Shown one piece after another: positions 225 through 37,016 of a DNA stretch of 42,492 bases (the stretch's first letter is position 1; every line of letters begins with the position of its first letter). Below the pieces are notes generated by a model, which saw nothing but the letters and a program-made list of their open reading frames with translations, ran no database searches and was not told the origin of the DNA. The stretch comes from an uncultured Bacillota bacterium (GTDB lineage Bacteria > Bacillota > Clostridia > Oscillospirales > Oscillospiraceae). The translations under genes and the position numbers were made by a program. The stretch is from NCBI GenBank assembly GCA_947073765.1, contig CAMTMZ010000023.1:1-42492 (forward strand), given 5' to 3'.

Positions 225-270
225 TGGAGCTGCTGGGCGGATTCGAACCGCCGACCTCATCCTTACCAAG
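225..270 (-). repeat. Attachment site 1: tRNA-Thr 3' half (att)
   Basis: Read on the minus strand this is the 3' half of a tRNA-Thr: anticodon loop TTGGTAA (anticodon GGT), 3' anticodon stem GGATG, T arm GGCGG-TTCGAAT-CCGCC, acceptor strand CAGCAGC, discriminator T and encoded CCA (225-227). The 5' anticodon stem is missing: the bases beyond 270 do not pair with GGATG. It is therefore not a functional tRNA but the displaced 3' end left by integration. The 17-nt core at 253-269 (GACCTCATCCTTACCAA on the plus strand) is identical at 20831-20847 and 36862-36878. The T arm differs from the other two copies, so this end came from a different element or from the original chromosome. Confidence 0.85.
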
Positions 271-408
271 TGATTGGAAGCTCTGGGAATGCCGCTGTTT
301 GGCACTTTCAGGGCGTTTTTGTTTGGGAAAGGCATGCTCTTGGGCCATTTCCCGTCCACTGACTCCGTCCGCTTTTTTCGGCGTGTGGGTCACGGTGTGG
401 GTCAACCC
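270..408. repeat. Element 1 left end with arm-type direct repeats
   Basis: About 140 nt that recur beside the other att copies (20848-20985 and 36879-37016) with few changes. It contains two GTGTGGGTCA units separated by CG (383-404), preceded by CCGCTTTTTTC. The same double unit lies between each integrase gene and the following att site (20696-20717, 36727-36748). Paired short direct repeats inside both ends are the usual form of arm-type binding sites for the N-terminal domain of Tn916/lambda-type integrases; that role is inferred. Confidence 0.75.
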
Positions 409-414
409 GCAAAC

Positions 415-825
415 CTATAATTCTGTACGGTACCGCTGTTCCAGATACTCGCCTACATCTCCACAGAAAGTCACCGCACCGGAAAATAGCGCATTGGTAT
501 CTGCGACAGAGCAGATATAAAAATCCTCGTAATCACTGCGGTTTCGAATTAGTGAGGCATTAGAGATCAATTTGCTGTACTCTCTGGGCAATATTTCAGG
601 TTTCAAATAATTCAGGGTAAACCGGGCAATCACCGCCGAGTGCTTCCTGAAGTCTTCGCCATCCAGAGCCAGCACCGCCCGCATCGCATGAAAAATCGCA
701 TAGTACGCCCGGTTGTTGGCGGAAGCATAATCCCTTGCTTCCATATCCCGTTTGGCAGATGCCAGCATTTCCTCGGCTTTCTGAAAACGATACCGTGATA
801 GGTCAACTTTTGTGATATTAGGCAC
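415..825 (-). CDS. HEPN-domain protein (partner of MNT nucleotidyltransferase)
   Basis: 136 residues, all-helical HEPN type (PF05168-like): a YASANNRAYYAIFHAMRAVL helix, then DFRKHSAVIARF, then RNRSDYEDFY near residue 95. HEPN proteins often pair with MNT nucleotidyltransferases in toxin-antitoxin modules in which the HEPN partner is an RNase. The usual R-x4-6-H catalytic motif is not clear here: the RSDYEDFY stretch has no histidine, so RNase activity is uncertain. Its start overlaps the end of the MNT gene by 8 nt, implying translational coupling. Its stop lies about 10 nt from the element's left arm repeat. It sits in the first slot of element 1, where element 3 carries a GNAT/small-protein pair. 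Probable role: maintenance or phage-defence module. Confidence 0.8.
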   Translation of the reverse strand: MPNITKVDLSRYRFQKAEEMLASAKRDMEARDYASANNRAYYAIFHAMRAVLALDGEDFRKHSAVIARFTLNYLKPEILPREYSKLISNASLIRNRSDYEDFYICSVADTNALFSGAVTFCGDVGEYLEQRYRTEL

Positions 826-1159
826 TGATCCTCACTCCCTCACGCTCAATACTGCGGTAGAATGGGAACAGCTGCAAATTTTGGTTGAAATACTCCCGGT
901 TTTCCACAAGAGGTGACACCGCAATACCGTGATCCAGCAAGAGCTCAGCGGCCAGGTCTCCCACCTGCCAATTTCGGTCTGAGATATCCTGGCGGGAGGC
1001 ATCTACCAAAATCAGCACATCAATATCCGACCCAGGATCAGCGTCTCCTCTGGCATAAGAGCCAAAAAGGATGGCCTCTATTTTATCCTGCGGAAACAGC
1101 AGGGCGATCCTGCTGCACAATTCCGCAACAATCGTGGTCACTTCCTGCCTGGTACGCAT
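818..1159 (-). CDS. MNT-type nucleotidyltransferase (HEPN/MNT module)
   Basis: 113 residues from the ATG at 1159, chosen because GAGGAGGG lies 6 nt upstream; a longer frame reaches 1213 without a ribosome-binding site. The minimal nucleotidyltransferase signature is complete: LFGSYARGDADPGSDIDVLI gives GS-x-A-R-G-D followed by D-x-D, the metal-binding pair. In characterised HEPN/MNT modules the MNT protein neutralises its HEPN partner by adding AMP. It is first in a two-gene operon with the HEPN gene (8-nt overlap). Promoter is not obvious; the upstream 60 nt contain a boundary repeat shared with other elements. Confidence 0.85.
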   Translation of the reverse strand: MRTRQEVTTIVAELCSRIALLFPQDKIEAILFGSYARGDADPGSDIDVLILVDASRQDISDRNWQVGDLAAELLLDHGIAVSPLVENREYFNQNLQLFPFYRSIEREGVRISA

Positions 1160-1224
1160 AGGATGCCCTCCTCTCTCCAAGCAAGGTTTTTTGACACTAT
1201 GAGTGTAACACAATGGGCAGTAAA

Positions 1225-1350
1225 ATACAAGCGGACCTCATGCAGAAATTGCTACGCAGTAAACAACAGGGAAGCTGTAGGCGCTGTGTAATTCGCTTTA
1301 TTTTTATCTCTGCATTTCTTCATTGCAAATCACAGTTTTCTATAGGCCAT
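1225..1350. repeat. Boundary motif plus leader relic (element 1 copy)
   Basis: Starts with AAATACAAGC, then TTGCTACGCAGTAAACAACAG (split here as TTGCTACGCAG + TAAACAACAG, 1249-1269), then a segment (about 1275-1343) matching 41985-42050 of element 3, including CGCTTTATTTTTA and CTCTGCATTTCT. In element 3 the same sequence leads into the ribosome-binding site of a secreted-protein gene. Here it stops about 10 nt before the stop codon of the convergent GH3 gene, with no trace of the secreted-protein gene, so it looks like the left border at which cargo replaced that gene. No coding capacity is evident. Confidence 0.65.
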
Positions 1351-3762
1351 TTAATCGACTTTCAAAATCAGCTCTAATACCCGACCGGCGCAAATCTCCA
1401 GGTCACGGTGGCTGACTGCCCCCAGCTTCATGGCCTCCTGTACCCGCTCCAGGTAGCCGTTGGCCATTTTCAGGTCATTGCCGGCCAAAATTTCTTTGTA
1501 ATGCTCTCCCCGGGTCCACCAGTCGGTCATCACCATGCCGGTATAGCCCCAGTCACCCCGCAGGATATCCGTCAGCAGCTCCCGGCTCTCGGAGGCGCGG
1601 CGGCCGTTGATCACGTTGTAGGAGCTCATAATGGCCCAGGGTTTCGCCTCCCGGACGATGATTTCAAAGGCGCGCAGGTAAATTTCCCGCAGGGCCCGCT
1701 GGGACAGGCGGGAGTCGCTGTGCTTGCGGTTGGTCTCCTTGTTGTTGCAGGCGAAGTGCTTCACCGTGGCGGCCATGTTTTGGCTCTGAATGCCACGCAC
1801 CTCGGCCCCGGCCAGCTTTCCGGTGAGCAGCGGGTCCTCGGAGAAGTACTCAAAGTTCCGGCCGCACAGGGGATTGCGGTGAATATTGACCGCCGGGGCC
1901 AGCCAGACAGAGATATTGTTCTCCTTGACCTCCGCCGCCGCGGCGGCGCCCACCCGGGAAACCAGCTCCCAGTCCCAGGTAGCGGCCAGCAGAGTGGCGC
2001 AGGGCCAGGCGGTGGTACACACCCCCACCTCGGGCCGAATCCGCAGACCCGCCGGGCCGTCGGCGGTAGTCAGGTTGGGCACGCCGTACTCCGGGAGGTT
2101 GCCCAGTCCAAAGGTGTTGGACACTCCCACGTTGGGCTGTCCCCCCAGCAGGTGGATCAGATCGCCGTCGCTGAGCTGGGCCACAAATTCCTCCAGGGTC
2201 AGTTTCCCCTCCGCCACGGCGGAGAGGGGCTGTACGCCCTCGGCGTAGGGTTGGGTCAGCAGCCAGCGCCCCCGGCCAGGCGTCGCGGGGGCAACCGCCT
2301 CGGCCTGACCAGCGTGGATGGGCCGGAGCAGATTGATGTCGGTGTCCGCTACCGGGGCGGCGGGCAGCTCCTCCCAGCCCCCGTCCGCCAGCAGGCGTTT
2401 AGGAAGGTGGGACGGGGACAGGCTGTCGCTGACCGTGCGAGTAACCTCCGTTTCAACCTGCTCCCAAGCCCAGTCCAGCTCTGCCGCCTCCCGCACGGAG
2501 GTCCCCACATATAGGGCGTAGCGCCCCTGCTCCAGCACCCAGGCGGAGGGGACGATCTTCCCCAAATCGTCGAAGCTGGCCATATCCGAGACGGCAAAGG
2601 TCAGCTCTACCGTTTCACTCTCGCCGGGCCCCAGCAGCTTCGTCTTCTGGAATGCCGCCAGACAGCGTTTCGGCTTCTGGAGCAGCCCCCAGGGGGCCCG
2701 GTAGTAGAGCTGGACCACTTCTTTCCCCGCCCGGCTTCCGGTGTTGGTCACCCGGACGGCAACCCGAATTTGACCGTCCGACCCTCCGGCGTTCACCGTC
2801 TCCAGGGCAAAGGTGGTGTAGGACAGGCCGTAGCCGAAGGGGTAGCACACCCGCTCCGCCACCCCGGGGATGGTCTCGAAATACCGGTAGCCCACATAGA
2901 TATCCTCGGTGTACTCCACATAGTGGGGGGAGTCGTGAAAATGCTCCGTGGAGGGGTAGTCGGACAGGTCCCGGGCGAAGGTGTCGGGCAGCTTGCCGCA
3001 GGGGTTGGTCCTGCCGGTGAGCAGGGCGGCGACAGCCGCGCCCCCCTCCATCCCGCCCTGATAGGCCAGCAGGACGGAGGGGATGCGGTCATCCTCACAG
3101 AACCAGGAGACATCCATCACGCCGCCAACGTTGAGCACCAAAACCACCTGCGCAAAGGCGGCGCAGACCTGCCGCACCATATTCTGCTCAGCGCCAGTCA
3201 GATAGAAATCCCCCTTAGGGAAAATCGCTTTTGCCTTTTGGGGCATCACCAACTCATCGGGCCAGGGATAGTCTGGCTCCTGGTACAACACCGGCTCCCG
3301 GTCCCAGCCCTCCCCGGAGAAGCGGCTGAGGACAATCACCGCCACGTCCGTATTTTCCTTTGCCCCGTCCACCAGGCTTTGGGGCAGCTCCGGCTCGGCC
3401 ATCAGGCCGGGCACGTCCCCGGCCTTGTACCGCCCGGCCACATAGTCCCGGTAAAAATCGGACAGGGGCTCGCAGAGGGGCACCCCCTCTCCTTTTAGTC
3501 CGTCGTACAGGTTCCGGACATAGGCCACGGTCACGTCGCCGCTGCCGCCGCCCCCCTTCACATAGTCGAAGCTGCCCTTGCCGAACAGGGCCACCCGGGT
3601 CTCCGGAGCCAGGGGGAGCAGTCCCCCGTCGTTTTTCAGCAACACCATGCCCTCCTGGGCCGCCTGCCGGGACAGGGCGACGTGCTCTGGACTGGCCGTT
3701 ACACGCCGGTCCCCCTCCAGGGGCAGATTGGGCTGATAGCGGGCGCGAATCCACTTTTCCAT
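1351..3762 (-). CDS. GH3 beta-glucosidase, circularly permuted domain order
   Basis: 803 residues, cytoplasmic (no signal peptide). Domain order is reversed relative to classical GH3: residues ~25-280 form the alpha/beta sandwich (SRQAAQEGMVLLKNDGGLLP, GGGGSGDVT), ~290-425 the fibronectin-III-like domain (YPFGYGLSYTTF, VRVTNTGSRAGKEVVQLYY), and ~510-803 the TIM barrel (TADGPAGLR, NIHRNPLCGRNFEYFSEDP, KHFACNNKE, MVMTDWW). The nucleophile is Asp747 in VMTDWW. Permuted GH3 enzymes of this type are known from ruminal bacteria and cleave beta-glucosides or cello-/laminari-oligosaccharides. It is last in the ABC-transporter operon, separated by a hairpin terminator at 3776-3804, with its own AAGGAGG just upstream. 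Likely final step releasing glucose from imported beta-glucan oligomers; exact linkage preference cannot be read. Confidence 0.93.
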   Translation of the reverse strand: MEKWIRARYQPNLPLEGDRRVTASPEHVALSRQAAQEGMVLLKNDGGLLPLAPETRVALFGKGSFDYVKGGGGSGDVTVAYVRNLYDGLKGEGVPLCEPLSDFYRDYVAGRYKAGDVPGLMAEPELPQSLVDGAKENTDVAVIVLSRFSGEGWDREPVLYQEPDYPWPDELVMPQKAKAIFPKGDFYLTGAEQNMVRQVCAAFAQVVLVLNVGGVMDVSWFCEDDRIPSVLLAYQGGMEGGAAVAALLTGRTNPCGKLPDTFARDLSDYPSTEHFHDSPHYVEYTEDIYVGYRYFETIPGVAERVCYPFGYGLSYTTFALETVNAGGSDGQIRVAVRVTNTGSRAGKEVVQLYYRAPWGLLQKPKRCLAAFQKTKLLGPGESETVELTFAVSDMASFDDLGKIVPSAWVLEQGRYALYVGTSVREAAELDWAWEQVETEVTRTVSDSLSPSHLPKRLLADGGWEELPAAPVADTDINLLRPIHAGQAEAVAPATPGRGRWLLTQPYAEGVQPLSAVAEGKLTLEEFVAQLSDGDLIHLLGGQPNVGVSNTFGLGNLPEYGVPNLTTADGPAGLRIRPEVGVCTTAWPCATLLAATWDWELVSRVGAAAAAEVKENNISVWLAPAVNIHRNPLCGRNFEYFSEDPLLTGKLAGAEVRGIQSQNMAATVKHFACNNKETNRKHSDSRLSQRALREIYLRAFEIIVREAKPWAIMSSYNVINGRRASESRELLTDILRGDWGYTGMVMTDWWTRGEHYKEILAGNDLKMANGYLERVQEAMKLGAVSHRDLEICAGRVLELILKVD

Positions 3763-3775
3763 AATTTCCTCCTTG

Positions 3776-3804
3776 AAAAAGCGCCGTCAAGCCGACGGCG
3801 CTTT
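3776..3804 (-). terminator. Hairpin terminator/attenuator inside the ABC-GH3 operon
   Basis: Perfect stem of GCGCCGTC (3781-3788) with GACGGCGC (3794-3801), extended by A-T pairs; on the minus strand it is followed by TTTTT (3780-3776) and then immediately by the AAGGAGG of the GH3 gene. It lies between the permease stop (3815) and the GH3 start (3762), so it should lower, not abolish, GH3 transcription relative to the transporter. Confidence 0.85.
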
Positions 3805-3814
3805 GTGTGTTGAT

Positions 3815-4657
3815 TTACTCCTTGACGCCGCCCAGGGTGACGCCTTCCACAATAAATTTCGACAGCAGCAGATAAATGATAATGATGGGCACGATGGCGA
3901 TGGTAATCATCATATAAATTTTACCCATGTCAAAATTCATGTAGTCCGCGCCCCGGAGGGTGGCGATCATGATGGGCAGTGTCTGCTTGTTCTTGGAGGT
4001 GATGACCAGGGCGGGAATGAAGTAGTTGTTCCAGGAGCCCACGAAGGTGAAGATGGCCTGCACCGCAATGGCGGGCTTCATGATGGGCAGCACGATGCGG
4101 TTGAAGGTGCCGAACTCTTTAGAGCCGTCGATCCGGGCGGCCTCAATCAGCTCCCTGGGCAGGGAGGACTGCATATAGCTGTGCATGAAGTAGAACACGG
4201 CGGGGGAGGCGATAGAGGGGATAATCAGAGGCAGCAGGGAGTCGTCCAGCCCCATGCTGGTAATCAGGCGCAGGAAGCCCAGAGCGGTCACCTGGGTGGG
4301 CATGACCAGGATGGCCATGATGAAGGTGAAGGCCGCGCGCTTGAGCTTGAAGTCGTAGGCATAGATGCCGTAAGCCGTCAGGGCGGAGAAGTAGGTCACG
4401 ATGGCGGCGCAACAGCCGGAGACAATCAGGCTGTTCTGGATGCCCTTCAAAATGGGGATGGCAGGGTCGTTGATAACACTGTTCAGGTTGGTCAGGAAGC
4501 TGGAGCCGGGCAGGAAGGAGAAGCCCAGCTGGAGCTGCGCATGGGACCGGGTGGCGTTGATAATCAGGATGTAGAAGAAGAACAGGCACAAAAAGGCCAG
4601 GATGATCAGCACCACATGGGCTAAAATCGTCCGTCCGTTGGATTTTTTGCTCTCCAT
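3815..4657 (-). CDS. Carbohydrate ABC transporter permease, MalG type
   Basis: 280 residues, six predicted membrane segments starting with a hydrophobic helix at ~10-33 (LAHVVLIILAFLCLFFFYIL). The EAA loop that docks the ATPase is present (EAARIDGSKEFGTFNRIVLP, around residues 175-195). It forms the membrane channel with the MalF-type partner, whose stop overlaps this start by one nucleotide (TAATG). Family CUT1, which imports oligosaccharides. No ATPase gene is present in the operon; CUT1 importers in Firmicutes commonly share a housekeeping MsmX/MalK-type ATPase. Substrate inferred from neighbours: beta-gluco-oligosaccharides. Confidence 0.93.
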   Translation of the reverse strand: MESKKSNGRTILAHVVLIILAFLCLFFFYILIINATRSHAQLQLGFSFLPGSSFLTNLNSVINDPAIPILKGIQNSLIVSGCCAAIVTYFSALTAYGIYAYDFKLKRAAFTFIMAILVMPTQVTALGFLRLITSMGLDDSLLPLIIPSIASPAVFYFMHSYMQSSLPRELIEAARIDGSKEFGTFNRIVLPIMKPAIAVQAIFTFVGSWNNYFIPALVITSKNKQTLPIMIATLRGADYMNFDMGKIYMMITIAIVPIIIIYLLLSKFIVEGVTLGGVKE

Positions 4658-5613
4658 TATGCCTTGCCTCCCTTCCTGGCCCGCCTGGCCGCGGATTTGG
4701 AGCCGTCCGGGTCGCTGTCGGTGTTCATCTTAAAGACCATCCAGCAGAGAATGGCGCTGATGATGAACAGGAAGACGGACAGGGCGCCGGCGATGCCGTA
4801 GTTCTTGGCCTGCAGGTGCTTGTTCAGGTACATGATCAGGGTCATGGTGGTGCGGTCGGGGGCGCCCTTGCCGGCGGTCAGAATCTGGGGCACGTCGAAC
4901 ATCTGGAGGCCACCGATGAGGGAGGTAATCAGGGTGTAGGTCAGCAGGGGCTTGATCTGGGGCAAGGTGATCCGGAAAAATTTCTGAATGTGGGTGCAGC
5001 CGTCCAGCTCCGCCGCCTCAAAAATGGAGGGATTAATGCCCATAATGGCCGCCATAAGCATAATGGTGGTGTTGCCGAACCACATGAGGAAGTTCATCAG
5101 CCCCACCAGGGTGCGGGCGCCCAGGGTGGACTCCATAAACCGGATGGCCTCTCCGACGATCCCCATGCGCAGCAGGATGCTGTTGATAGGCCCGGCGTTG
5201 GAGAACAGAGCGAAGAACAGCATGGCGAAAGCGGAGGCCATGATCAGGTTGGGCAGGTAGATGACCACCTTGAAGAACTGCTTGCCCCGGATTTTCAGCC
5301 GGGCGTCGGTGAACCAGGACGCCAGCACCAGGGAGATGATGATCTGGGGCACAAAGCCCAGCACCCACATCACAAAGGTGTTCCAGGCGTACTTGGGCAG
5401 ATCGGAGGAGAGCAGCGAGATGTAGTTGGACAGCCCCGTCCAGTTGGGGCCCACGGTTTTCAGGCCGAAGGCGTAGTACTCATAGAAGCTGTTCCGGATG
5501 GTGTCCGCCAGCGGGATCAGGGAAAAAATGGCGTAGGACAGGAAGAAGGGCAGGATGAAGATATAGCCCCACTTGGCATAGCTGACGCTTTTGATTATAT
5601 TCTGTTTTTCCAT
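4657..5613 (-). CDS. Carbohydrate ABC transporter permease, MalF type
   Basis: 318 residues with a first membrane helix at ~14-36 (GYIFILPFFLSYAIFSLIPL) and about six segments in all. The EAA motif reads EAAELDGCTHIQKFFRITLP around residue 215. It pairs with the MalG-type permease downstream (1-nt overlap) and lies 24 nt after the binding-protein gene, so the three form one transcript. CUT1 family. The C-terminal tail is basic (SAARRARKGGKA) and cytoplasmic. Confidence 0.93.
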   Translation of the reverse strand: MEKQNIIKSVSYAKWGYIFILPFFLSYAIFSLIPLADTIRNSFYEYYAFGLKTVGPNWTGLSNYISLLSSDLPKYAWNTFVMWVLGFVPQIIISLVLASWFTDARLKIRGKQFFKVVIYLPNLIMASAFAMLFFALFSNAGPINSILLRMGIVGEAIRFMESTLGARTLVGLMNFLMWFGNTTIMLMAAIMGINPSIFEAAELDGCTHIQKFFRITLPQIKPLLTYTLITSLIGGLQMFDVPQILTAGKGAPDRTTMTLIMYLNKHLQAKNYGIAGALSVFLFIISAILCWMVFKMNTDSDPDGSKSAARRARKGGKA

Positions 5614-5637
5614 AAAAAGTCCCCCTCTCTCTCATTT

Positions 5638-7026
5638 TTATGGCCATTCCACGCCGCCGCCTACCAGCCAGGGGTAGCGCTCGGTGATGGACATCTCAAA
5701 GTTGGCCTTGGCCTTGTCCAGGCTGATCTTGCCGTTGAAGTAGTCGCCGAAGGTGTTTTGGAACTCCTCCACACAGCCCTGGTCGTAGGAGGAGATGTTG
5801 GACAGGTCCACCGTGGCCGCCACGTCGGAGAGCACGCCGATGTAATTCTGTCCGCCCAGCAGGTCGATGCCGAAGTCGGGGGACTGGGCCAGCTCCTCCA
5901 TCAGGGGCTGGTCGTTGCTCATCTCGCCGTAGTTCAGTGCCAGGGTGCGCAGGAGCTCCCGATCGGCAGTCATGGTCAGCATGATGTCCCTGACCTGGGA
6001 GGCGTTGTCGGTGCCGTTGGCAGCCACCAGCCAGGTGCCGCCCCAAAAGAAGCTCTGGGGGCTGGGGCAGACGGCCCAGTCCTGGGCGGCGGCGGTGTCC
6101 TTCACGTTGGGGGCGATGCACACGTCCAGGCCCCAGGCGGGGAGGAAGAAGCAGAACACCTTGGAGTCGGGGCCCATGTCCTTGTTCCACTCGTCGTTCC
6201 ACTGGCCCGGCACGTTGTGGCTGACGCCGCTGGCGATGTCCTCCATGGAGCGCTCCACCCAGTTCATCATGTTGGGGTCCACCACCACGGTCTTGTCGTT
6301 CTTCACCCAGGGGGCGGAGACGTTGTTGGAATACACCCGGGCGGTGTCGGCCCGGCCGGAGTACATATAGTAGCCGGCTTCCTTCATCTGCCCGGCGGTC
6401 TCGTAGAATTTGTCCCAGTCGGCCACGGCGGCGCCCACGACCTCCGGGTCGTCGGTGCCCAGGACGGCCTGGGCGATGGAGCGGCGGTAGACCAGCATGC
6501 CGGGGGTGGCCTGGTAGCTCAGGCCCCTAATCTCCCCGTCGGAGCCGGTCATGGCCTCCAAGGTGTAGCGGTACTGGTTGGCGATGTCAGCGTCGGTGAT
6601 GCCCAGCTGAGAGATGGGGAGGGCCACGTTGACCTCAGGGTCGACGTACTTCAAGGCGTAGTCGGCCTCCACCAGAAACATGTCCACCCGCTCGTCGGCG
6701 GCCGCCCTGCCCTGCTTGAGCAGCGCCTCATCCAGCTTCTGCTGATAGACGCCGTCCTGGGTGGGGTTGACGATCCAGTGAACCTCGGTGCCGTCTTTCA
6801 GATAGGCCACCGACTTGTCGTTGGACAGGCGCTCTACTTCGGGGTAGTTCTCGTTGAACTTGCCCTGGAACTCCTCATTCCACACGTAGATGTTCAGGAC
6901 CTTGCCGCCGTCGCTGGCCTGCGTGCCGCTGAGCAGGCCGCCGCTGCCGCCCCCTCCGCAGCCGCTGAGCAGCCCCAGAGCTGTCACGGAGGCCAGCGCC
7001 AGGCCCAGGATTCTCTTTTTTCTCAT
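5638..7026 (-). CDS. Sugar ABC transporter substrate-binding lipoprotein
   Basis: 462 residues from the ATG at 7026, which has GGAGGAG just upstream; a longer frame to 7164 has no ribosome-binding site and would hide the signal peptide. Signal: MRKKRILGLALASVTALGLL followed by the lipobox LLSGC (Cys about residue 23), then a Gly/Ser-rich linker and the mature family-1 binding fold (VLNIYVWNEEFQGKFNENYP). It should be anchored to the outer face of the membrane and deliver oligosaccharide to the two permeases. First gene of the transporter-GH3 operon, read from a promoter in the 7027-7261 region it shares with the divergent AraC gene. Confidence 0.93.
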   Translation of the reverse strand: MRKKRILGLALASVTALGLLSGCGGGGSGGLLSGTQASDGGKVLNIYVWNEEFQGKFNENYPEVERLSNDKSVAYLKDGTEVHWIVNPTQDGVYQQKLDEALLKQGRAAADERVDMFLVEADYALKYVDPEVNVALPISQLGITDADIANQYRYTLEAMTGSDGEIRGLSYQATPGMLVYRRSIAQAVLGTDDPEVVGAAVADWDKFYETAGQMKEAGYYMYSGRADTARVYSNNVSAPWVKNDKTVVVDPNMMNWVERSMEDIASGVSHNVPGQWNDEWNKDMGPDSKVFCFFLPAWGLDVCIAPNVKDTAAAQDWAVCPSPQSFFWGGTWLVAANGTDNASQVRDIMLTMTADRELLRTLALNYGEMSNDQPLMEELAQSPDFGIDLLGGQNYIGVLSDVAATVDLSNISSYDQGCVEEFQNTFGDYFNGKISLDKAKANFEMSITERYPWLVGGGVEWP

Positions 7027-7081
7027 GTTCCACTCCTCCTGTTCACAGTTTGCGTAGCCCGCGGGCCGCCGTATAATCAAA

Positions 7082-7134
7082 ATTATAGGCGGGCGGGCGG
7101 CGACCGTATATAAAAACCAATAGACAAATATCAA
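7082..7134 (-). promoter_or_regulatory. Promoter region of the transporter operon with possible AraC site
   Basis: On the minus strand TTGATA (7134-7129), 16 nt, TATATA (7112-7107) is a good sigma-A promoter; a perfect TATAAT at 7087-7082 is a second candidate -10 lacking a -35, as at activator-dependent promoters. The 11-mer TTGATATTTGT (7134-7124) and nearby TTTTATATA recur in front of the sugar symporter of element 2 (30623-30662), suggesting a shared regulator-type site. The rest of 7027-7261 holds the AraC leader. Confidence 0.6.
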
Positions 7135-7261
7135 ATCCATGACAGCTTTTGGATACTGTCCCAATTTTTCTCCGAATTTTACGCGTAAACCGCCAAGCTG
7201 CCTCTTGATGAAATGTCAGATTCATGATATATTTGTTCCAAAATTTCAGGGAGGTGCCATC

Positions 7262-10430: not shown

Positions 10431-10442
10431 TCCATCCGCTCC

Positions 10443-23808: not shown

Positions 23809-23828
23809 AATGTTTCCTTCCTTTCTAA

Positions 23829-25840: not shown

Positions 25841-25868
25841 CAAGGATCGTCCCTTCTGTGAGGTAATT

Positions 25869-26723: not shown

Positions 26724-26727
26724 CGGT

Positions 26728-26749: not shown

Positions 26750-26759
26750 ATCATTCTCT

Positions 26760-28994: not shown

Positions 28995-29022
28995 GGTGGG
29001 TTCCTCCTTGTGAAATAGGTTG

Positions 29023-29060
29023 CCAGGGGCGGCGCGGCGCTATCTCCTTGCCGCCCCCGG
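29023..29060 (-). terminator. GC-rich hairpin between symporter and GH36
   Basis: GGGGCGGC (29026-29033) pairs with GCCGCCCC (29050-29057). There is no T-run on the minus strand, so it is more likely a processing or stability element within the operon than a full stop. Confidence 0.5.
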
Positions 29061-29065
29061 GAAAA

Positions 29066-30481: not shown

Positions 30482-30745
30482 GATTATTTCCTCCTGTTGT
30501 TTGATTTGATGGTTTCCCACGTTCGGCCAAAACGAGAGAAAATCATGTTTTCATCGAAGAACCGGTTCCCTTTGATAAGATTACTATAACATATCTGAAC
30601 AATCACAGTCGTGTGCAGTTCTTATATAAAACTGTCCATTTGTTTGTTTTTACAAATATCAACTTACCTCCACTCGGAATATTGTACAAATTTACCCTCT
30701 GTTTTTTAGGCAATGCGCCAGATAATAGTAACCTAAACTATAAAT
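30482..30745 (-). promoter_or_regulatory. Upstream region of the symporter operon with candidate operator
   Basis: AT-rich leader with no confident -35/-10 pair. Holds the inverted repeat ATTTGT-N8-ACAAAT (30638-30657), the 11-mer TTGATATTTGT on the minus strand (30662-30652) and TTTTATATA (30631-30623); the last two also occur before the transporter operon of element 1 (7134-7107). This fits activation by the local AraC-family regulator. Confidence 0.45.
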
Positions 30746-30776
30746 AAAAACCTGGAGCAAATTATTCACTCCAGGT
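30746..30776 (-). terminator. Terminator of the DUF6076-like gene (element 2)
   Basis: On the minus strand ACCTGGAG-N11-CTCCAGGT is followed by TTTTATTTA. It ends the gene with its stop at 30794, as the hairpin at 14626-14665 does in element 1. Confidence 0.9.
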
Positions 30777-30793
30777 CTTTACAGATATTATGC

Positions 30794-31840
30794 TCAAAAC
30801 TTGCAAAACTGGTTTCGCATTTCCTCGTCTGTCAACTCTCCCCGTTCTGCCATATCTAGTACCTCCTGCGCTTGGGACACAATGGTGTTCCACTCATCCC
30901 TGCTGATTTTTCCTCTCTGCTTTCTTGCCTTCAAACGGTTGTAGACCTTCCGGTACTCCATGCCCGCAGGACTCAGCCCTGTGGGGTGATTCGCTTTTCT
31001 GTGCGCACCGACCTTACGGCAGGTGTGCTCCGTCTCACCCGGTGCGATGTTATTGCAGTAGCAGGTGTTGTACCCGGCGGTCAGCAGAAAATAGCGTCCG
31101 CAGTTGTGACAGCGACGGGGCGCATTGCCTACCATCAGCCCCCGGTAGAAATCCGTATAGAGAAAGTGGGAAAGATAACGGAACTCCACCTTTTCCGCCA
31201 AGAGAGCTTTTCCCGCTTCCGTAGGATCTGCCGTCGGGACAAAGCAAAGCTGAGCGGGAAAGCTCTGACTGAATTCCTGTCCGGGGAAAAACAGTTCTCC
31301 GGCGGCGGTCATTTCGGTAAAGTAAGTAGCGTAGGCTCCTGCGTATGCCTCAGCGCTACGGCGGGAAAGTGGTTCAAAGTAGGGCTCCAGCATTCCGTCC
31401 AGCTGTCCCCTGAAGTTCCGCAGGCTCTCTGAAAAGTATTCCAGTCCAGAGAGAAAGTCCTCAAACATTCGGTGCCCTTCTGAATCAACGTCCAGTGTCT
31501 CCGCCCACTTGGCCCGGTCCGACAGCAGGATAGGAAATAAATTTCGGGCGGTCTCCACATCCAAACGCAGACTGCGGTACACCGGCAGTTCAAAGACTAA
31601 ATCCCAGACAGCGTTGAGCTGTTCCTGTGCGGAGCAGGCAGCGCTGTCTGTTTTTTCCTGAAGCAGTGTCCACACAGCAGATATGAAGGCATTTACTCGC
31701 TGATCGATTTCCGTCAGCACCTCGCTGTCCAGATTCAGAACGTCTGTAGTAAGCCGGCCAAGCGGGAATACAGTCCCGTCCAAAAACACAGTGTCTCCAG
31801 TAAAGAAAACCGAGAAGCGGTCAAACGTATTCTCTGCCAT
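30794..31840 (-). CDS. DUF6076-like zinc-ribbon protein (element 2)
   Basis: 348 residues from ATG 31840 (GAGGGACAG upstream). Same layout as 14729-15697: a long helical N-terminal region and a C-terminal zinc-ribbon-like part, CHNCGRYFLLTAGYNTCYCN...CRKVGAHRK, with a basic tail. Overall similarity to the element 1 copy is limited to the C-terminal part and general layout, although the two neighbouring chassis genes are nearly identical. It is divergent from the xis-like gene (140 nt apart) and may have travelled with the cargo. Confidence 0.65.
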   Translation of the reverse strand: MAENTFDRFSVFFTGDTVFLDGTVFPLGRLTTDVLNLDSEVLTEIDQRVNAFISAVWTLLQEKTDSAACSAQEQLNAVWDLVFELPVYRSLRLDVETARNLFPILLSDRAKWAETLDVDSEGHRMFEDFLSGLEYFSESLRNFRGQLDGMLEPYFEPLSRRSAEAYAGAYATYFTEMTAAGELFFPGQEFSQSFPAQLCFVPTADPTEAGKALLAEKVEFRYLSHFLYTDFYRGLMVGNAPRRCHNCGRYFLLTAGYNTCYCNNIAPGETEHTCRKVGAHRKANHPTGLSPAGMEYRKVYNRLKARKQRGKISRDEWNTIVSQAQEVLDMAERGELTDEEMRNQFCKF

Positions 31841-31980
31841 ACTGTCCCTCCTGTATCCGATAGAGTTTTGGCGTTTCCCCATCCTGTGCCAAACCTGTTG
31901 TATAGCTGTTTGTTTTGTGCTACCCTCAGCATATCAGGGTGATCACCGGAAGTCAATTCAGATATGGAGAAGGAAACAAG

Positions 31981-32193
31981 ATGAAACAGTCAGTCTACAA
32001 AGCCTATGAGGAACTGCCGCTGTTCCTCAACGCGGAAACAGTGGCAAAGGTGCTGGGCATTGCGCCGTCTAGCAGCTACGAGCTGATGCACGAAGTCGGC
32101 TTCCCAGTGTTGAAAGTCGGCAGCAGGATGGTCGTGCCCAAGGAGAAGTTCATCCAGTGGGTGGAGGAGCACACCCAAGGAGGTACGCAGTGA
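31981..32193 (+). CDS. Excisionase-type helix-turn-helix protein (element 2)
   Basis: 70 residues from ATG 31981 (GAGAAGGAAAC upstream); upstream ATG 31915 is poorer. Differs from the element 1 protein at about 7 positions, with the HTH and wing (FPVLKVGSRMVVPKEKFIQW) unchanged. The region of strong similarity between elements 1 and 2 begins at its start codon. Confidence 0.8.
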   Translation: MKQSVYKAYEELPLFLNAETVAKVLGIAPSSSYELMHEVGFPVLKVGSRMVVPKEKFIQWVEEHTQGGTQ

Positions 32194-32579
32194 GTGCAGC
32201 AAACAAAAACTACTTCCCCACACCCAACGAAATTTTTTCTCTGGGTTTATCTCCTGGTGAGTTCGCAGTGTACGCCTACCTGCTCCGCTGCGCAAACCGG
32301 CGCACCCATCAGTGCTGGCCCAGCTACAGAACCATCGGCGCAGCAACTCAGTTGAGCGTCAACACGGTGCGCAAGCACGTCTGCTCCCTCGCTGATAAAG
32401 CTCTCATCAGCACAGCGGACACTACCGTATTCACCAGGACTGGTCTCAAGCACAACGGCAGTCTGCTCTACACCATCCAGCCATTCCAAGAGGTACTGGA
32501 TGCTCATCAACAGGACGAACTGTGCAGACTGGAGGAGGAGACGGCAAGATGGGAATACGCAAAAACTGTGTCGCTGTAA
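32190..32579 (+). CDS. HTH_36 winged-helix protein (element 2)
   Basis: 129 residues from GTG 32190 overlapping the xis stop, with AAGGAGGT upstream, as in element 1. Core SPGEFAVYAYLLRCANRRTH and CWPSYRTIGAATQLSVNTVR. The C-terminal codons and stop again coincide with the recurring CGCTGTAAACAA motif (32566-32586). Confidence 0.75.
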   Translation: MSAANKNYFPTPNEIFSLGLSPGEFAVYAYLLRCANRRTHQCWPSYRTIGAATQLSVNTVRKHVCSLADKALISTADTTVFTRTGLKHNGSLLYTIQPFQEVLDAHQQDELCRLEEETARWEYAKTVSL

Positions 32580-32704
32580 ACAAGAGAAGCCCCTCCGTGA
32601 TGGCCTGTGGGCCGTTGTGTGCGGCCTCCTCTGCTTCCAGCAGAAAATGTACCCACCGACCAAGGTGCACCGACTTGTGGGCCGTTTCCGAGGGACGAGA
32701 GGAG

Positions 32705-32827
32705 AAGCAGGAGAAAGCGCCGGCGCTTTTGCTGCGCCGGTGCGGTCACAACCGCCCGCAGTGCGGGCGGTTTCAGAGACGGAGGCTGACGCTTTTCTGC
32801 GGGCTGACATCTTTGATTGACGCTGAT
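32705..32827. ncRNA. Near-invariant non-coding block with two hairpins (element 2)
   Basis: Partner of 16671-16793 with two substitutions in 123 nt. Hairpins at 32720-32740 and 32751-32771. The stretch just upstream (32590-32700) differs completely from element 1 in its middle. Confidence 0.45.
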
Positions 32828-32855
32828 TCTCTAAAAAACAGAGAAACCCGCCGCT

Positions 32856-32903
32856 ATTGCAGAGTTTGCAATGACGCTATTACAGAGTAAGGGAGGTTTT
32901 ACA
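32856..32903. other. Candidate origin of transfer (oriT), element 2
   Basis: Identical to 16822-16869, with inverted repeat ATTGCA-GAGTT-TGCAAT (32856-32872), directly before the MobC-like gene. Confidence 0.45.
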
Positions 32904-33311
32904 ATGAACAAGAACAAGGACCGCCACACCATCTGGCTGACGGATGAAACGTGGAATGTGGTAAAGGAACACTATCGAAAAGACAATTGCTCCGCACAGA
33001 ATGAGTACATCGAGAAAGCGATCCAGTTCTACTCCGGCTATCTGGATGCCGAGCAGGCTGACAGCTATCTGCCCCGTGTCCTCGCGGAGCTGCTGGAGGG
33101 CAAACTGGATGCTCTGGGCGGCCGAATCGGAAAGATTCTGTTCAAGCTGTCGGTGGAGGAGGCGATCATGGCGCAGATCGTTGCCTACGGGTTCAATGTG
33201 GATCTGGACACGCTGAAAAAGGTACGGGTCAACTGTATCAAGGACATCAAAGAAACGAACGGCGAAGTCGATTTTGAAGACACCTACAAATATCAAAAGA
33301 GGCTCGACTGA
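32904..33311 (+). CDS. MobC-like relaxosome accessory protein (element 2)
   Basis: 135 residues from ATG 32904, six nt after GGGAGG; an upstream start at 32871 falls in the candidate oriT. Ribbon-helix-helix-like N-terminus (RHTIWLTDETWNVVKEHYRK). Overlaps the relaxase start by one nucleotide (TGATG). Confidence 0.75.
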   Translation: MNKNKDRHTIWLTDETWNVVKEHYRKDNCSAQNEYIEKAIQFYSGYLDAEQADSYLPRVLAELLEGKLDALGGRIGKILFKLSVEEAIMAQIVAYGFNVDLDTLKKVRVNCIKDIKETNGEVDFEDTYKYQKRLD

Positions 33312-35065
33312 TGCAGGGGCTGGTTCAAAAGAGTGGCTACATCAAGTCGGGCGGCGGCGCGGGGCACTACACGGAGTACATCGCCACCCGAGACGGCGTG
33401 GAACTGCTGAACGCCGGCGACCAGTACCTGAAGTACATCGCGGAGCGTCCTCGTTCTCATGGCCTGTTCTCCAACGTGCAAAATACTGATTTGGAAAAGA
33501 CGATGCAGGAGGTGAACAGCCACTCAGCTCCTGTCTGGACGTTCATTTACTCGCTCAAGCGGGAAGATGCTGCCCGGCTGGGTTACGACTCCGCAGAGAG
33601 CTGGCGGAAGCTCCTCCTGGCTCACCAGACGGAGTTGGCGGAGGCGATGAAAATACCGCCTAACCAGTTCCGCTGGTGCGCCGCCTTCCATGACGAGAAG
33701 CACCATCCCCATATCCACATGATGGTCTGGTCAGCGGACCCGAAGCAAGGTTATCTGACAGAGCAGGGCATCGAAGCGATGCGCTCCAAGCTGACCAACG
33801 ATATTTTTCAAGACGAGCTGCTGCACCTCTACAAGCAAAAGGACCTGTCTTATCAAGAAGTGCGCGATACGGCGCAGGAGGCAATGCGTGATCTGGTCCA
33901 AGAGATGAAGTCCGGGGTCTGTAATTGCCCCGCCATCGAGGACAAGCTGTTTACTCTGGCTGAGATGCTCAAAACTGCCAAGGGCAAAAAAGTATACGGC
34001 TATCTGAAAAAATCGGCCAAGGCTCAGGTGGACGCCATCGTGGATGAGCTGGCGAAGCTCCCGGCGGTGGCGGAGTGCTATGAGGTATGGAACAAACTGC
34101 GTGATGAGCTGGAGAACTACTACAAGGACAAGCCCAGAGAACACCTGCCTCTGTCACAGCAGAAGGAGTTCAAGACAATCAAGAATATGGTCATCCGTGA
34201 GGCGGAGCGGATTCGGTTGGGCGAGATCACATTCGAGGACGAGCAGATGGATGGCGAACCGTTCGAAGGGGAAGAGGTCTTGGTTCCTCAGACGCGCTGG
34301 CAGATGGTGAATGCGTATCGGGAAGCCCGGTATGTCCTCTGCGATGACGACTCCACCTGGGCGGAGCAGGAGGAGGCCGTCCAAACACTGGAACAGCTCT
34401 GGGACGACGGCCTGACAGTGGCAGCGCACCAGTTGGGCAAATGCTGGCGGGAGGGCTTGGGTGTCCTGCCGGACGACGACAAGGCGGAGCTGTGGTTTCG
34501 TCGCTCCGCTGAGTCCGGGAATGATTTTTCCCAATATGCGCTGGGAAAGCTCCTGCAAGGTCAAAAGAGAATTGCTGAAGCAGTGAAGTGGTACAAGCAA
34601 GCCGCCGCCCAGGGCAATCAGTATGCCAGCTACCGTCTGGGCAAGCTCTATCTCCAAGGTGAGGATGTTCCCAAAGACACAGCCAAAGCCATCGAACACC
34701 TGACCCAGGCATCTGAGAGCGGCAACCAGTATGCGCAGTACGCACTCGGCAAGTTGTACCTGGACAGACAAGACGAGGAACAAGCTCACTACTGGTTTAC
34801 CCAGTCCGCTGCACAAGGAAACGAGTACGCTCAGTTCTTCCTGGACCGCCGGGACAGCCTAAAGCCGCCCACGGTCATGTTGTCGGTCACTCGTCTGCTC
34901 CACCACATGAGTGAACTATTCCAAGACAATTCCGTACCGCCTCAAGCTCCGGTGGGACAACAGGCAGATCGAAAACTGCGAATCAAAATCAGGGAGAAGA
35001 AAATCGCTATGGGGCACAAGGCAGGTGACCACGAGGAGTACAACGGGCCGTCGATGTCAATGTGA
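33311..35065 (+). CDS. MobL/MobP-type relaxase with C-terminal Sel1 repeats (element 2)
   Basis: 584 residues, same length as the element 1 relaxase with no gaps seen. Metal triad FHDEKHHPHIHMMVW (126-140) is intact. Substitutions cluster in the acidic linker (~315-335: MDGEPFEGEEVLVPQTRWQM versus MVDELDEEEEVLNIHPHWRV), while the relaxase domain and Sel1 repeats (AHQLGKCWREGLG, SQYALGKLLQ, ASYRLGKLYLQGED, AQYALGKLYL) are well kept. Both copies look functional. Confidence 0.85.
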   Translation: MQGLVQKSGYIKSGGGAGHYTEYIATRDGVELLNAGDQYLKYIAERPRSHGLFSNVQNTDLEKTMQEVNSHSAPVWTFIYSLKREDAARLGYDSAESWRKLLLAHQTELAEAMKIPPNQFRWCAAFHDEKHHPHIHMMVWSADPKQGYLTEQGIEAMRSKLTNDIFQDELLHLYKQKDLSYQEVRDTAQEAMRDLVQEMKSGVCNCPAIEDKLFTLAEMLKTAKGKKVYGYLKKSAKAQVDAIVDELAKLPAVAECYEVWNKLRDELENYYKDKPREHLPLSQQKEFKTIKNMVIREAERIRLGEITFEDEQMDGEPFEGEEVLVPQTRWQMVNAYREARYVLCDDDSTWAEQEEAVQTLEQLWDDGLTVAAHQLGKCWREGLGVLPDDDKAELWFRRSAESGNDFSQYALGKLLQGQKRIAEAVKWYKQAAAQGNQYASYRLGKLYLQGEDVPKDTAKAIEHLTQASESGNQYAQYALGKLYLDRQDEEQAHYWFTQSAAQGNEYAQFFLDRRDSLKPPTVMLSVTRLLHHMSELFQDNSVPPQAPVGQQADRKLRIKIREKKIAMGHKAGDHEEYNGPSMSM

Positions 35066-35191
35066 TTACTCAAAAACTGCTACGCAGTAAACAAGAGCAA
35101 CCTATTAAATTTTTGATAACTCTGCTCAAAAGGGATGGCTATTCATCTATAGTTAGTGTATTGTGTGTTGCTGCAAAGGAGGCAGGCGAAA

Positions 35192-35488
35192 ATGCGAAAA
35201 ACCTTGGAAGATCTCTACTACGGCAACATCACACCCAGTGAACAGCAGATGACTCCCGGCTCAGAAATGGAGAAGGCGGTAGCTCGTGTCGCCAGCTGCG
35301 AAAAACAGCTTATGGAGCAGTTCGGGGAAGCTGAGCAAACGATTCTTACAAAGCTCATCCGGTCACAGCATGAGATCAACGGCATAACGGCTCTGGAAAA
35401 TTTCATCCTGGGATTTCGGTTGGGAGTCAGAATCATGGCTGAGTGCATGGATGAGAATGACGGTGACATAAGAAGCGGGGGTGGATAA
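35192..35488 (+). CDS. DUF6809 family protein (element 2)
   Basis: 98 residues from ATG 35192 with AAAGGAGG upstream. LEDLYYGNITPSEQQMTPGS and ENFILGFRLGVRIMAECM are as in element 1. Function unknown. Preceded at 35077-35100 by a copy of the TGCTACGCAGTAAACAA motif after the relaxase stop. Confidence 0.8.
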   Translation: MRKTLEDLYYGNITPSEQQMTPGSEMEKAVARVASCEKQLMEQFGEAEQTILTKLIRSQHEINGITALENFILGFRLGVRIMAECMDENDGDIRSGGG

Positions 35489-35490
35489 CG

Positions 35491-36645
35491 GTGGCAAAGA
35501 AACGAGCAAACGGTGAGGGGAATATCCGCAAGCGCAAGGACGGTCGCTGGGAGGGTCGGTACACCGCCGGCTACGATTCAGAAACCGGCAAGCGGATCAT
35601 CAAGAATGTCCTCGGAAAGACGCAAGCCGAGGTCAAGGAGAAGCTGGCCCAAGCACAGCAGGAAAGTGCCGGTCTGGATGTGGGACGCAGCGAGGACTAC
35701 ACAGTGGCCAGTTGGCTGAGGAGTTGGTACGAACTCTACGCCAAGCCTAACATCCGACCGGCCACCGCAGACCGCTACCAGCTGATCATCGAGACCTACA
35801 CCATCCCCCGTATCGGCAGGATCAAGCTCAACAAGCTGACTTCCCGTGATCTCCAAAAGCTCTACAAAGACCTGATGGAAAAAGGTAGAGTCCAGAAACG
35901 CAGCGGCAAAGGCAATCCCGGGCTGAGCAGCACCACGGTACGGAGCGTCCATCTCACCCTCCACTGCGCATTCGAGCGGGCGGTCAAAGAACGACTCATC
36001 CCTCGCAATCCTACCGACGACTGCATCGCTCCCAAGGTGCAGAAGGTAGAGATGAAGACGCTCCTGCCAGAACACCTGAAAGCCTACCTGGACGCCACCA
36101 ACGCCAGAGACGTCCTGCCCATGTTCTACCTGGAACTGGTAAGCGGACTGCGCAAAGGTGAACTGGTGGCGCTCCTCTGGAGCGACCTGGATGCAGAGCA
36201 TAAGACGATCTCCGTCAGCAAGCAGTATGTCCGCAACCCCAGCGGAGAGGTGATGCTCTCCAGGCCTAAGACAGAAACTTCGGTACGGCAAGTATCCATT
36301 CCGCAGGATGCAGTCGATCTGCTGATCCAGGAACACAGCAAGCACCCAGACAACCAGTATATGTTTCCCTCGCCGGTCACGGGAGAGATGTACCACCCTG
36401 ACTCCGTGGTAAAACTCCACGAAAAAATCTTAAAAGACGCTGGATTGGAGCACATCAGATTCCACGACCTCAGACACACCTTCGCAACGCTGGCTCTCCA
36501 GAACGGCGTGGATGTCAAAACAGTCTCCAGTATGCTGGGGCACTATGACGCAGGCTTCACCCTCCGCACTTACACCCACGCCACCCGGCAACAACAGAAC
36601 AGAGCAGCAGAGACAATGGGAAATTTTATGGCACAGGTCATGTAG
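35491..36645 (+). CDS. int: Tn916-family tyrosine integrase (element 2)
   Basis: 384 residues from GTG. Catalytic set intact: Arg221 (SGLRKGE), Lys244, His325-x-x-Arg328, His351, Tyr361. The N-terminal arm-binding region (1-55) is identical to the element 1 integrase, consistent with the same arm repeats at both elements' ends; differences lie mostly in the core-binding domain. Confidence 0.95.
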   Translation: MAKKRANGEGNIRKRKDGRWEGRYTAGYDSETGKRIIKNVLGKTQAEVKEKLAQAQQESAGLDVGRSEDYTVASWLRSWYELYAKPNIRPATADRYQLIIETYTIPRIGRIKLNKLTSRDLQKLYKDLMEKGRVQKRSGKGNPGLSSTTVRSVHLTLHCAFERAVKERLIPRNPTDDCIAPKVQKVEMKTLLPEHLKAYLDATNARDVLPMFYLELVSGLRKGELVALLWSDLDAEHKTISVSKQYVRNPSGEVMLSRPKTETSVRQVSIPQDAVDLLIQEHSKHPDNQYMFPSPVTGEMYHPDSVVKLHEKILKDAGLEHIRFHDLRHTFATLALQNGVDVKTVSSMLGHYDAGFTLRTYTHATRQQQNRAAETMGNFMAQVM

Positions 36646-36665
36646 GACAGAAACACAACGAAAAG

Positions 36666-36697
36666 GCCAGGCAGGAAGGCGGAACTTCCTGTCTGGC
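36666..36697 (+). terminator. Hairpin after integrase gene (element 2)
   Basis: GCCAGGCAGGAAG (36666-36678) pairs with CTTCCTGTCTGGC (36685-36697), with one G-T pair. Partner of 20636-20665. Confidence 0.6.
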
Positions 36698-36726
36698 GTT
36701 CTCTGTCCCTCTCCGGACATTTCGCC

Positions 36727-36748
36727 GTGTGGGTCACGGTGTGGGTCA
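36727..36748. repeat. Right arm-type direct repeats (element 2)
   Basis: Two GTGTGGGTCA units separated by CG, as at 20696-20717. Confidence 0.7.
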
Positions 36749-36833
36749 ACGAAAAGCGACAAAAATAAACCCGTCTAAAAAGTTGCAAAAATAATAGAAA
36801 TCCCGCCAGAATCAACCGATTCAAGCGGGATTT

Positions 36834-36878
36834 TGGAGCTGCTACCCAGATTTGAACTGGGGACCTCATCCTTACCAA
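36834..36878 (-). repeat. Attachment site 3: tRNA-Thr 3' half (junction of elements 2 and 3)
   Basis: Minus-strand tRNA-Thr 3' half with the same T arm and acceptor as site 2 and the same hairpin just outside the CCA end (36799-36832). Core 36862-36878. Beyond the core it reads CTGATTGCCAACCTCGGGA where sites 1 and 2 have GTGATTGGAAGCTCTGGGA, so the crossover lies within the 17-nt core and element 3 has a different left edge. Confidence 0.85.
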
Positions 36879-37016
36879 CTGATTGCCAACCTCGGGAGTG
36901 CCGCTGTTCAGCACTTTCGGGGCATTTTTGTTGCGGAGGCGCATGGTCTTTGGCACTTTCCCGTCCATTGTCTCCGCCCGCTTTTTTCCGCGTGTGGGTC
37001 ACGGTGTGGGTCAAGC
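36879..37016. repeat. Element 3 left end with arm-type direct repeats
   Basis: Matches 270-408 and 20848-20985 apart from the first ~20 nt. The second GTGTGGGTCA unit supplies the stop codon of the small gene at 37011. Confidence 0.75.

Follow-up and report, generated by a model that had tools for sequence, protein, structure and literature searches.

Three 3′ halves of a tRNA-Thr(GGT) gene, all on the minus strand and none with a 5′ half, are spread over a contig of an uncultured Bacillota bacterium of the Oscillospiraceae (CAMTMZ010000023.1), and they raise the question of what the DNA between them represents: chromosomal background that happens to include two sugar operons, or integrative elements that carry these operons as cargo. 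The contig, which we analysed over its entire 42,492 nt and will henceforth refer to as the window, is contig C23 of a 2.33-Mb draft genome in 61 contigs (G000). We consider it highly probable that the window is part of a tandem array (i.e., an accretion) of integrative and mobilizable elements (IMEs) at the 3′ end of a tRNA-Thr(GGT) gene. In this reading two elements with attachment (att) sites on either side (elements 1 and 2) lie between the right end of a further element (element 0) and a remnant (element 3), beyond which an element of another type begins (Table 1).

Borders of the elements

Each of the three halves contains an 18-nt core, GACCTCATCCTTACCAA(G/C), always on the same strand and with one mismatch in the third copy; three occurrences in the window compare with 0.08 expected, and none of 100 shuffles reached three. 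The halves are embedded in a 187-nt direct repeat (positions 222-408, 20800-20986 and 36831-37017, with 100%, 87% and 81% identity to the first copy), and to the right of each half lies a related left end, those of elements 1 and 2 being 88% identical over 143 nt. The T-arm sequence of the first half differs from that of the other two, and each T stem pairs with itself (as judged by eye). A second sequence, GTGTGGGTCACGGTGTGGGTCAA, was found in five exact copies where none would be expected, each of them 112 nt from a core and on both sides of the cores; we infer that these repeated sites are arm-type integrase sites of a symmetric attP.

Elements 1 and 2 are built alike, with cargo on the left and a mobility module on the right, and the coding parts of the two modules are 82-90% alike at the DNA level. 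Their integrases are intact 384-aa open reading frames (ORFs) that are 96% identical to each other and contain the catalytic motifs R, HDLRH, LGH and Y, and each of them matches PF00589, while both relaxases are full-length ORFs with a 3-His motif and a match to PF18555 above the cut-off. Among the proteins scanned against profiles (18 of element 1 and 12 ORFs of element 2, with the remaining small ORFs outside the scan), we found no conjugation pore, type IV secretion system (T4SS) or coupling family, nor any phage structural or packaging family. Judged by this predicted gene content, both elements are IMEs (i.e., they have an integrase, attL and attR, and a relaxase, and no pore of their own) rather than integrative and conjugative elements (ICEs), which are defined by a T4SS of their own.

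An initial annotation of this DNA had already described the three halves with their common left end, an intact integrase before the second and third of them and the right end of a further element before the first, and all of this agrees with our findings (the last corresponding to bases 1-252, of a tandem-recombinase type). The core that it gave as 17 nt is present in all three halves; we delimit it as 18 nt, with one mismatch in the third.

The arrangement suggests how such an array could arise. An integrase would recombine attP, whose core corresponds to the tRNA's anticodon arm and 3′ half and has a pair of GTGTGGGTCA arm sites 112 nt to either side, with the tRNA gene or, as a possible second target, with a half that a previous element had left behind. 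The incoming element would bring its own 3′ half, meaning that the tRNA stays whole and the old half is left as the far border, and repeated integration would build the array. After excision, presumably as a circle, the MobL relaxase and a probable origin of transfer (oriT) would allow each element to move from cell to cell through the conjugation pore of a helper, with one sugar pathway as its cargo.

The borders of element 1 were confirmed by comparison with another species, those of element 2 being set by its cores. Specifically, window positions 1-20850 matched Pseudoflavonifractor sp. 60 (NZ_QWKI01000055.1; G060) with 98.87% identity over 20,850 nt (BLAST). In bins of at most 2 kb, identity across positions 253-20830 was 99.60-100% except in 9001-11000 (91.6%), these values omitting bases inserted only in Pseudoflavonifractor sp. 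60; element 1 as a whole is thus approximately 99.8% identical outside one tract of about 1 kb. By contrast, identity was 86.1% to the left of the first core (1-252) and 36-40% in the 52 nt that follow the second core, where the two genomes have different sequences, and the rpoB regions of the two genomes are 87-88% identical. Considering this, element 1 was shared recently, as a unit cut at the cores, which supports its mobilization indirectly. The initial annotation had taken the stretches of 0.25-20.8 and 20.8-36.9 kb as whole elements with the sugar operons as cargo, and the occurrence of element 1 as a discrete unit in another species upholds this.

The deviating tract (about 9400-10400) lies within a GH94 gene and is approximately 17% different, with no Ns at this place in the assembly of Pseudoflavonifractor sp. 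60; it looks as if it had been replaced via recombination with a related gene.

In Oscillibacter sp. 1-3 (NZ_KE159714.1; G061; rpoB region 79-84% identical), window positions 1-270 were found at 95.6% identity directly beside an intact tRNA-Thr(GGT), and the two sequences part right after the core. Going by this alignment, we take the locus to be a comparable site that lacks element 1.

The tRNA-Thr(GGT) site in related genomes

We surveyed 30 stretches around cores (the window included; a subset of all cores found) and found an intact tRNA-Thr(GGT) on 17, of which 11 had further halves. All 16 further halves on these 11 stretches lay on the 3′ side of the intact gene and on the same strand. 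Where the stretch extended far enough upstream, tRNA-Asp came first, mostly followed by tRNA-Trp, tRNA-Met and tRNA-Asn. Among 64 same-genus genomes (our own included; G066 is apparently the same as G060, with identical contig numbers and positions), 34 had at least one core and 19 at least two, allowing one mismatch, many of the remaining genomes being incomplete. When the far flanks of the arrays were compared, over at most 7 kb each, integrase regions were shared between them, and no common chromosomal flank could be named.

In G012, G029 and G044, the last of which belongs to another genus, an intact tRNA-Thr(GGT) is followed on its 3′ side by 8.9, 6.9 and 6.3 kb, respectively, in which no ORF is related to the window integrase; as other integrase families were not searched for there, we regard these loci as candidates for empty sites only. 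The T arm and acceptor end of tRNA-Thr(GGT) vary between same-genus genomes and between the halves of one array, as if the elements exchanged the 3′ half of the tRNA. The tRNA-Thr(GGT) of G023 would carry an A-C mismatch at 7-66 (by eye).

The integrases point to the same site. We identified 181 relatives in a collection of species genomes and kept the best 80, corresponding to 76 loci and 83 integrase copies. For 33 of the 41 copies with at least 76% identity and at least 230 nt of downstream sequence, a tRNA-Thr(GGT) core (up to three mismatches) lay 195-316 nt after the gene. More distant copies were found at Thr(GGT) as well (L080 and L094) or beside tRNA-Thr(CGT), tRNA-Tyr or tRNA-His, and for many no tRNA was recognised. 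In a quick tree of 83 integrase rows, the 35 rows with a Thr(GGT) label, including the two from the window, formed one side of a branch with SH-aLRT support of 100; 30 rows are unlabelled and may fall inside the Thr(GGT) group. An arm pair like that of the window (up to three mismatches) preceded the core by 95-114 nt in all 33 Thr(GGT) loci tested, and the same pair followed the core, at the same threshold, in 6 of 17 half-bearing junctions (halves judged by ARAGORN). Some loci (L116, L117 and L097) have two or three related integrases each, in part beside tRNA-Thr(CGT) or tRNA-Tyr, and stacking seems to occur at other tRNA genes too among these integrases.

The window itself contains no tRNA gene (ARAGORN), and the initial annotation had placed an intact tRNA-Thr(GGT) to its right. 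This position is borne out in relatives, on which it depends, the gene being absent from our own assembly, where all 34 Rfam tRNA matches were typed with ARAGORN and the threonine tRNAs are TGT and CGT only. Since tRNA-Asn and tRNA-Trp, which neighbour tRNA-Thr(GGT) in relatives, are likewise missing from these 34 matches, we read the absence of all three as an assembly gap. The succession att-element-att-element, which together with one intact tRNA characterises tandem accretion, is present in the window, the intact tRNA being found in relatives only.

A further claim, that the order of accretion can be read from the array with the newest insertion next to the tRNA, did not hold. It is element 3, the decayed one, that lies nearer to the presumed tRNA, while element 1, which was shared recently, is located further inside the array. 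In addition, each half includes a core into which a later element might integrate; in other systems, resident elements have been proposed to offer their att sites as integration targets (PMC5704250, PMC5357655). The order of insertion is therefore not established; newest beside the tRNA may still be right, without position revealing it.

Cargo, mobility genes and outer parts of the array

The features of the window are listed in Table 1. Cargo 1 is a probable beta-glucan/cellodextrin operon, and cargo 2 would provide melibiose import, its hydrolysis and the Leloir pathway, both uses being suggested by the protein families present. The HEPN/nucleotidyltransferase pair at the left end of element 1 is possibly a maintenance toxin-antitoxin system, and the HTH_17 protein may be excisionase-like. 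The intergenic stretch before the relaxase operon is a candidate oriT, and the 135-aa protein that follows it would, from its position, be a relaxosome accessory protein; it matched no Pfam family at E 0.001 (with one chance-level match at E 0.065) and none in NCBIfam. The relaxase of element 1 corresponds to the NCBIfam model NF041499 (MobP3), with 325 bits against a cut-off of 150. No function was assigned to the DUF6809, DUF6076, 197-aa and 607-aa proteins. ORFs were called mechanically by script, and two of them, at 25422-26645 (-) and 25145-25831 (+), matched no family and are probably not genes.

Table 1. Features of the 42,492-nt window and the evidence by which each was assigned.
Feature	Position	Strand	Basis
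Right end of element 0 (two tandem tyrosine recombinases)	1-252	+	86% to right end of the left-hand neighbour in Pseudoflavonifractor sp. 60
Taken as 3′ end of second recombinase gene	1-60		Same core distance as in G005
tRNA-Thr(GGT) 3′ half no. 1, att between elements 0 and 1	222-270 (core 253-270)	-	Repeat and core search
Element 1, predicted complete IME, 20.6 kb	253-20848		att cores at both ends; identity breaks at both cores versus Pseudoflavonifractor sp. 60
Left-arm site of element 1, GTGTGGGTCACGGTGTGGGTCAA	383-405	+	112 nt from core; putative integrase arm site
HEPN (415-825) and nucleotidyltransferase (818-1213) pair	415-1213	-	Pfam PF05168, PF01909; PADLOC PDC-S09 for nucleotidyltransferase
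Cargo 1: GH3, two ABC permeases, solute-binding protein, AraC regulator, GH94, second weaker GH94 match, GH16, DUF624	1351-14495		
DUF6076 protein at cargo/mobility border, element 1	14729-15766	-	Profile scan
HTH_17 small protein and HTH_36 protein	15866-16464	+	HTH_17 26.5 bits (just below cut-off of 27); HTH_36 54.5 bits
Candidate oriT, intergenic	16655-16869		94% between elements 1 and 2; GC-rich inverted repeats 16683-16709, 16716-16738
135-aa protein ahead of relaxase	16872-17279	+	Position only
MobL/MobP3 relaxase with C-terminal Sel1 repeats, 3-His motif HHPHIH	17279-19033	+	PF18555 143 bits, Sel1
DUF6809 protein	19103-19456	+	Profile scan
Tyrosine integrase of element 1, 384 aa	19460-20614	+	PF00589; catalytic motifs
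Right-arm site of element 1	20696-20718	+	112 nt from core
tRNA-Thr(GGT) 3′ half no. 2	20800-20848 (core 20831-20848)	-	Repeat and core search
Element 2, predicted complete IME, 16.0 kb	20831-36879		att cores, both arm sites, relaxase, integrase
Left-arm site of element 2	20961-20983	+	Motif search
Cargo 2: GalT, GalE, GalK, AraC regulator, GH36 alpha-galactosidase, MelB-type GPH symporter	21319-30520		MelB above NCBIfam cut-off
DUF6076 protein of element 2	30794-31882	-	Profile scan
Mobility module of element 2	31900-36861	+	Relaxase 33311-35065, integrase 35491-36645; small genes assigned solely from homology with element 1
Right-arm site of element 2	36727-36749	+	Motif search
tRNA-Thr(GGT) 3′ half no. 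3	36831-36879 (core 36862-36879, one mismatch)	-	Repeat and core search
Element 3 remnant: left end, 197-aa protein, DUF2284, radical SAM, 607-aa protein	36862-41795		
Left-arm site of element 3 remnant	36992-37014		Motif search
Left end of further element of other type, without tRNA half; putative start of CAP-domain gene	41796-42492	+	

At the left edge of the window, the tandem recombinases at the place matching element 0 in Pseudoflavonifractor sp. 60 and Oscillibacter sp. 1-3 are 88-90% like those of G005. At the other side, the left end of element 3 (36833-38057) is 99% identical to an element of G007 that has an integrase. The border at about 41,796 was set by alignment with three intact junctions of the same type and a decayed one on contig C20 of our own genome, and the DNA beyond it (41796-42492) matches L141, whose protein at this place is a CAP protein. 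Given the lack of any relative of the window integrase or relaxase, a GC content of 43% (compared with 57-58% in elements 1 and 2) and the att-less left end that begins at this border, we interpret the third unit as a remnant with a scar. It resembles a CIME, i.e., a cis-mobilizable remnant that keeps both att sites (PMC5704250, as described there), in its left core and arm site and in that no integrase or relaxase was found, and differs in having no right att, its right border lacking a tRNA half where the next left end begins. Of the earlier proposal that elements 0 and 3 both run past the window, the part on element 0 stands, bases 1-252 being its right end; the window is the whole contig, and element 3 ends at about 41.8 kb without an integrase.

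The 197-aa protein of element 3, which takes the place of the HEPN/nucleotidyltransferase pair, had no match in Pfam, PADLOC or NCBIfam. The radical SAM protein (38706-39713) matched viperin-like defence models and many radical SAM families weakly, with none above the cut-off among the matches listed.

A search of our own genome for the core with two mismatches allowed gave one extra site (C20:70-87), a decayed half. It lies on C20:1-891 (L015), has two core mismatches and an altered T arm and 3′ end, and adjoins an integrase fragment and an element left end, with 85% identity to contig C88 of G005; perhaps it is the old far end of the window array. We also observed a motif, TTGCTACGC(A/T)GTAAACAA, in seven copies with up to three mismatches (0.04 expected), at 1249-1266, 19045-19062, 21143-21160, 35077-35094 and 37843-37860 and, more weakly, at 16451-16468 and 38039-38056. 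The copies stand near element left ends, after relaxase genes and elsewhere too, and may perhaps represent a common promoter or regulator site.

Elements at this site in other genomes differ in content. In G016, an element that lies next to an intact tRNA-Thr(GGT) and whose integrase is 96% identical encodes an AraC regulator, GH36, a GH13-type protein and a PTS enzyme I-like protein, together with a relaxase of PF03432 and no MobL match. Stretches between cores hold tricarboxylate transporter genes in G017, and a methylase and a type III restriction-type protein in G007. A Pfam tally of complete stretches covered 103 of their 199 ORFs of at least 150 aa (integrases, a 36-kb and a 38-kb stretch and certain others were set aside) and matched 112 families; most families occurred once, meaning that the cargo is diverse and extends beyond sugar genes.

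Alternative explanations and known systems

Several observations weigh against a tandem array of IMEs. Our own assembly lacks the intact tRNA, element 2 was not found whole elsewhere among the loci compared, no circular junction was seen, and the function of the candidate oriT is argued from sequence features. Eight of the 41 integrase copies have no core downstream, and 11 of the 17 half-type junctions lack the same arm pair on their far side, which would be expected if other element types follow there. No MobL match was obtained for some elements whose integrases are 95-96% identical (in G007 and G022, no ORF matched the window relaxase), and element 3 has no relative of the window integrase or relaxase in 36862-41795. 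The operon of element 2, moreover, occurs in G009 at 89% identity over 9.4 kb, inverted and next to sequences that resemble the left end at 41.8 kb and the HTH_36 backbone gene, and in G074 as two fragments at 83-87%; the core is absent from all three of these G009 and G074 contigs.

How far do these points favour other explanations? If the relaxase genes were relics and the elements, no longer mobilizable, spread by transduction or natural uptake followed by integrase-driven insertion, the lack of coupling and pore families and of relaxase matches in the G007 and G022 elements would be accounted for. The relaxase ORFs have nevertheless kept their full length and 3-His motif, the stretch before the relaxase operon is 94% conserved, and the PF03432 relaxase of the G016 element hints at selection for a relaxase. 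Contig C28 of our own genome, in addition, encodes a T4SS coupling protein and a TraG-type ATPase, a possible helper for transfer. We therefore regard a loss of mobilization as unlikely. Transfer or duplication of one large composite island as a block, with the internal tRNA halves as relics and no element moving singly, appears very unlikely: element 1 does have a similar tandem-recombinase right end on its left in both genomes, and joint transfers of CIME-ICE tandems are among those described in PMC5704250, but the drop in identity on either side shows that the recently shared unit is element 1 alone.

A chimeric assembly, in which repeats joined elements that lie apart in the genome, is highly improbable. 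The similarity of the two mobility modules and the fragmentation of the draft would make such an error conceivable, yet long contigs from the same genus show such arrays on one contig (G007 is assembled in 1 contig and G017 in 7), and an independent assembly has the same left junction of element 1. There is next to no likelihood that the window is a prophage or phage-satellite array. Integrase relatives do occur in 2,924 phage records, two at 60-80% identity and the rest below 60%, but the scanned proteins of elements 1 and 2 include no phage structural or packaging family, the best five of the six matches listed are faecal scaffolds, and the best named phage among these matches, a phage of Flavonifractor, has an integrase only 33% identical. 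As the scaffolds are unannotated (the two that we opened, MT839855.1 and MT835887.1, are marked UNVERIFIED), they were not used as evidence. Separately, we observed that MT835887.1 (L219), MT839855.1 (L220) and MT836036.1 (L221) have an integrase relative, a MobL relaxase relative or, in MT835887.1, both; perhaps they are IMEs of this kind recorded as phages.

Tandem accretion of IMEs at tRNA ends, our preferred explanation, is known, and the move of element 1 between lineages would be of a kind already known as well; this element family is apparently undescribed. A literature search over titles and the beginnings of abstracts (subscription papers and preprints outside its scope) returned no paper on the family or its tRNA-Thr(GGT) site, on MobL on such elements, or on near-identical integrases side by side. 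We tentatively propose, with considerable reservation, that tRNA-Thr(GGT) is a genus-wide docking site in gut Oscillospiraceae, at which one integrase-and-attP vehicle with an exchangeable relaxase delivers and stacks complete sugar or organic-acid pathways and at which neighbours with 96% identical integrases tolerate each other, unlike the more distantly related streptococcal pairs. If true, dietary range would change by gain and loss of cassettes at this site. Borders known nearly to the base show how an entire sugar operon can pass as one unit from gut species to gut species, and where it lands. As the site is easily read in any genome of the group, one can track across hosts and diets how its cargo turns over; the cargo observed includes sugar operons, tricarboxylate transporter genes and a restriction-modification pair.

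With regard to the relaxases, those of the window resemble RelLS20 of pLS20, the MOBL relaxase described in PMC5313138, in their Pfam MobL match above the cut-off and their 3-His motif. RelLS20, however, belongs to a conjugative plasmid, whereas the MobL relaxases here sit on IMEs and are fused to Sel1 repeats (the term 'Sel1' is absent from the text of that paper). Some MobL relaxases thereby gain a concrete home; the same text, from 2017, draws no firm conclusion on the nature of MOBL clade 2, and the relaxase of element 1 carries no clade assignment. IME_Rho_tet, as presented in PMC12904643, is likewise an IME of gut Bacillota with a relaxase, and differs in its serine recombinase, in having MAFF2-type genes as the largest target group and in its tetracycline-resistance cargo. 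The closest likeness in the sources compared is to the tandem IME accretions reported in PMC5704250 and PMC5357655, which in the accounts given there share with elements 1 and 2 a site-specific tyrosine integrase, insertion at a tRNA 3′ end, a relaxase of their own, no pore genes found, and a tandem position with related, unrelated or decayed elements. The cargo here consists of whole sugar pathways, while neither 'carbohydrate' nor 'sugar' appears anywhere in the main text of PMC5704250, and the streptococcal accretion integrases are reported as 21-69% identical (PMC5357655), compared with 96% for the two neighbours in the window.

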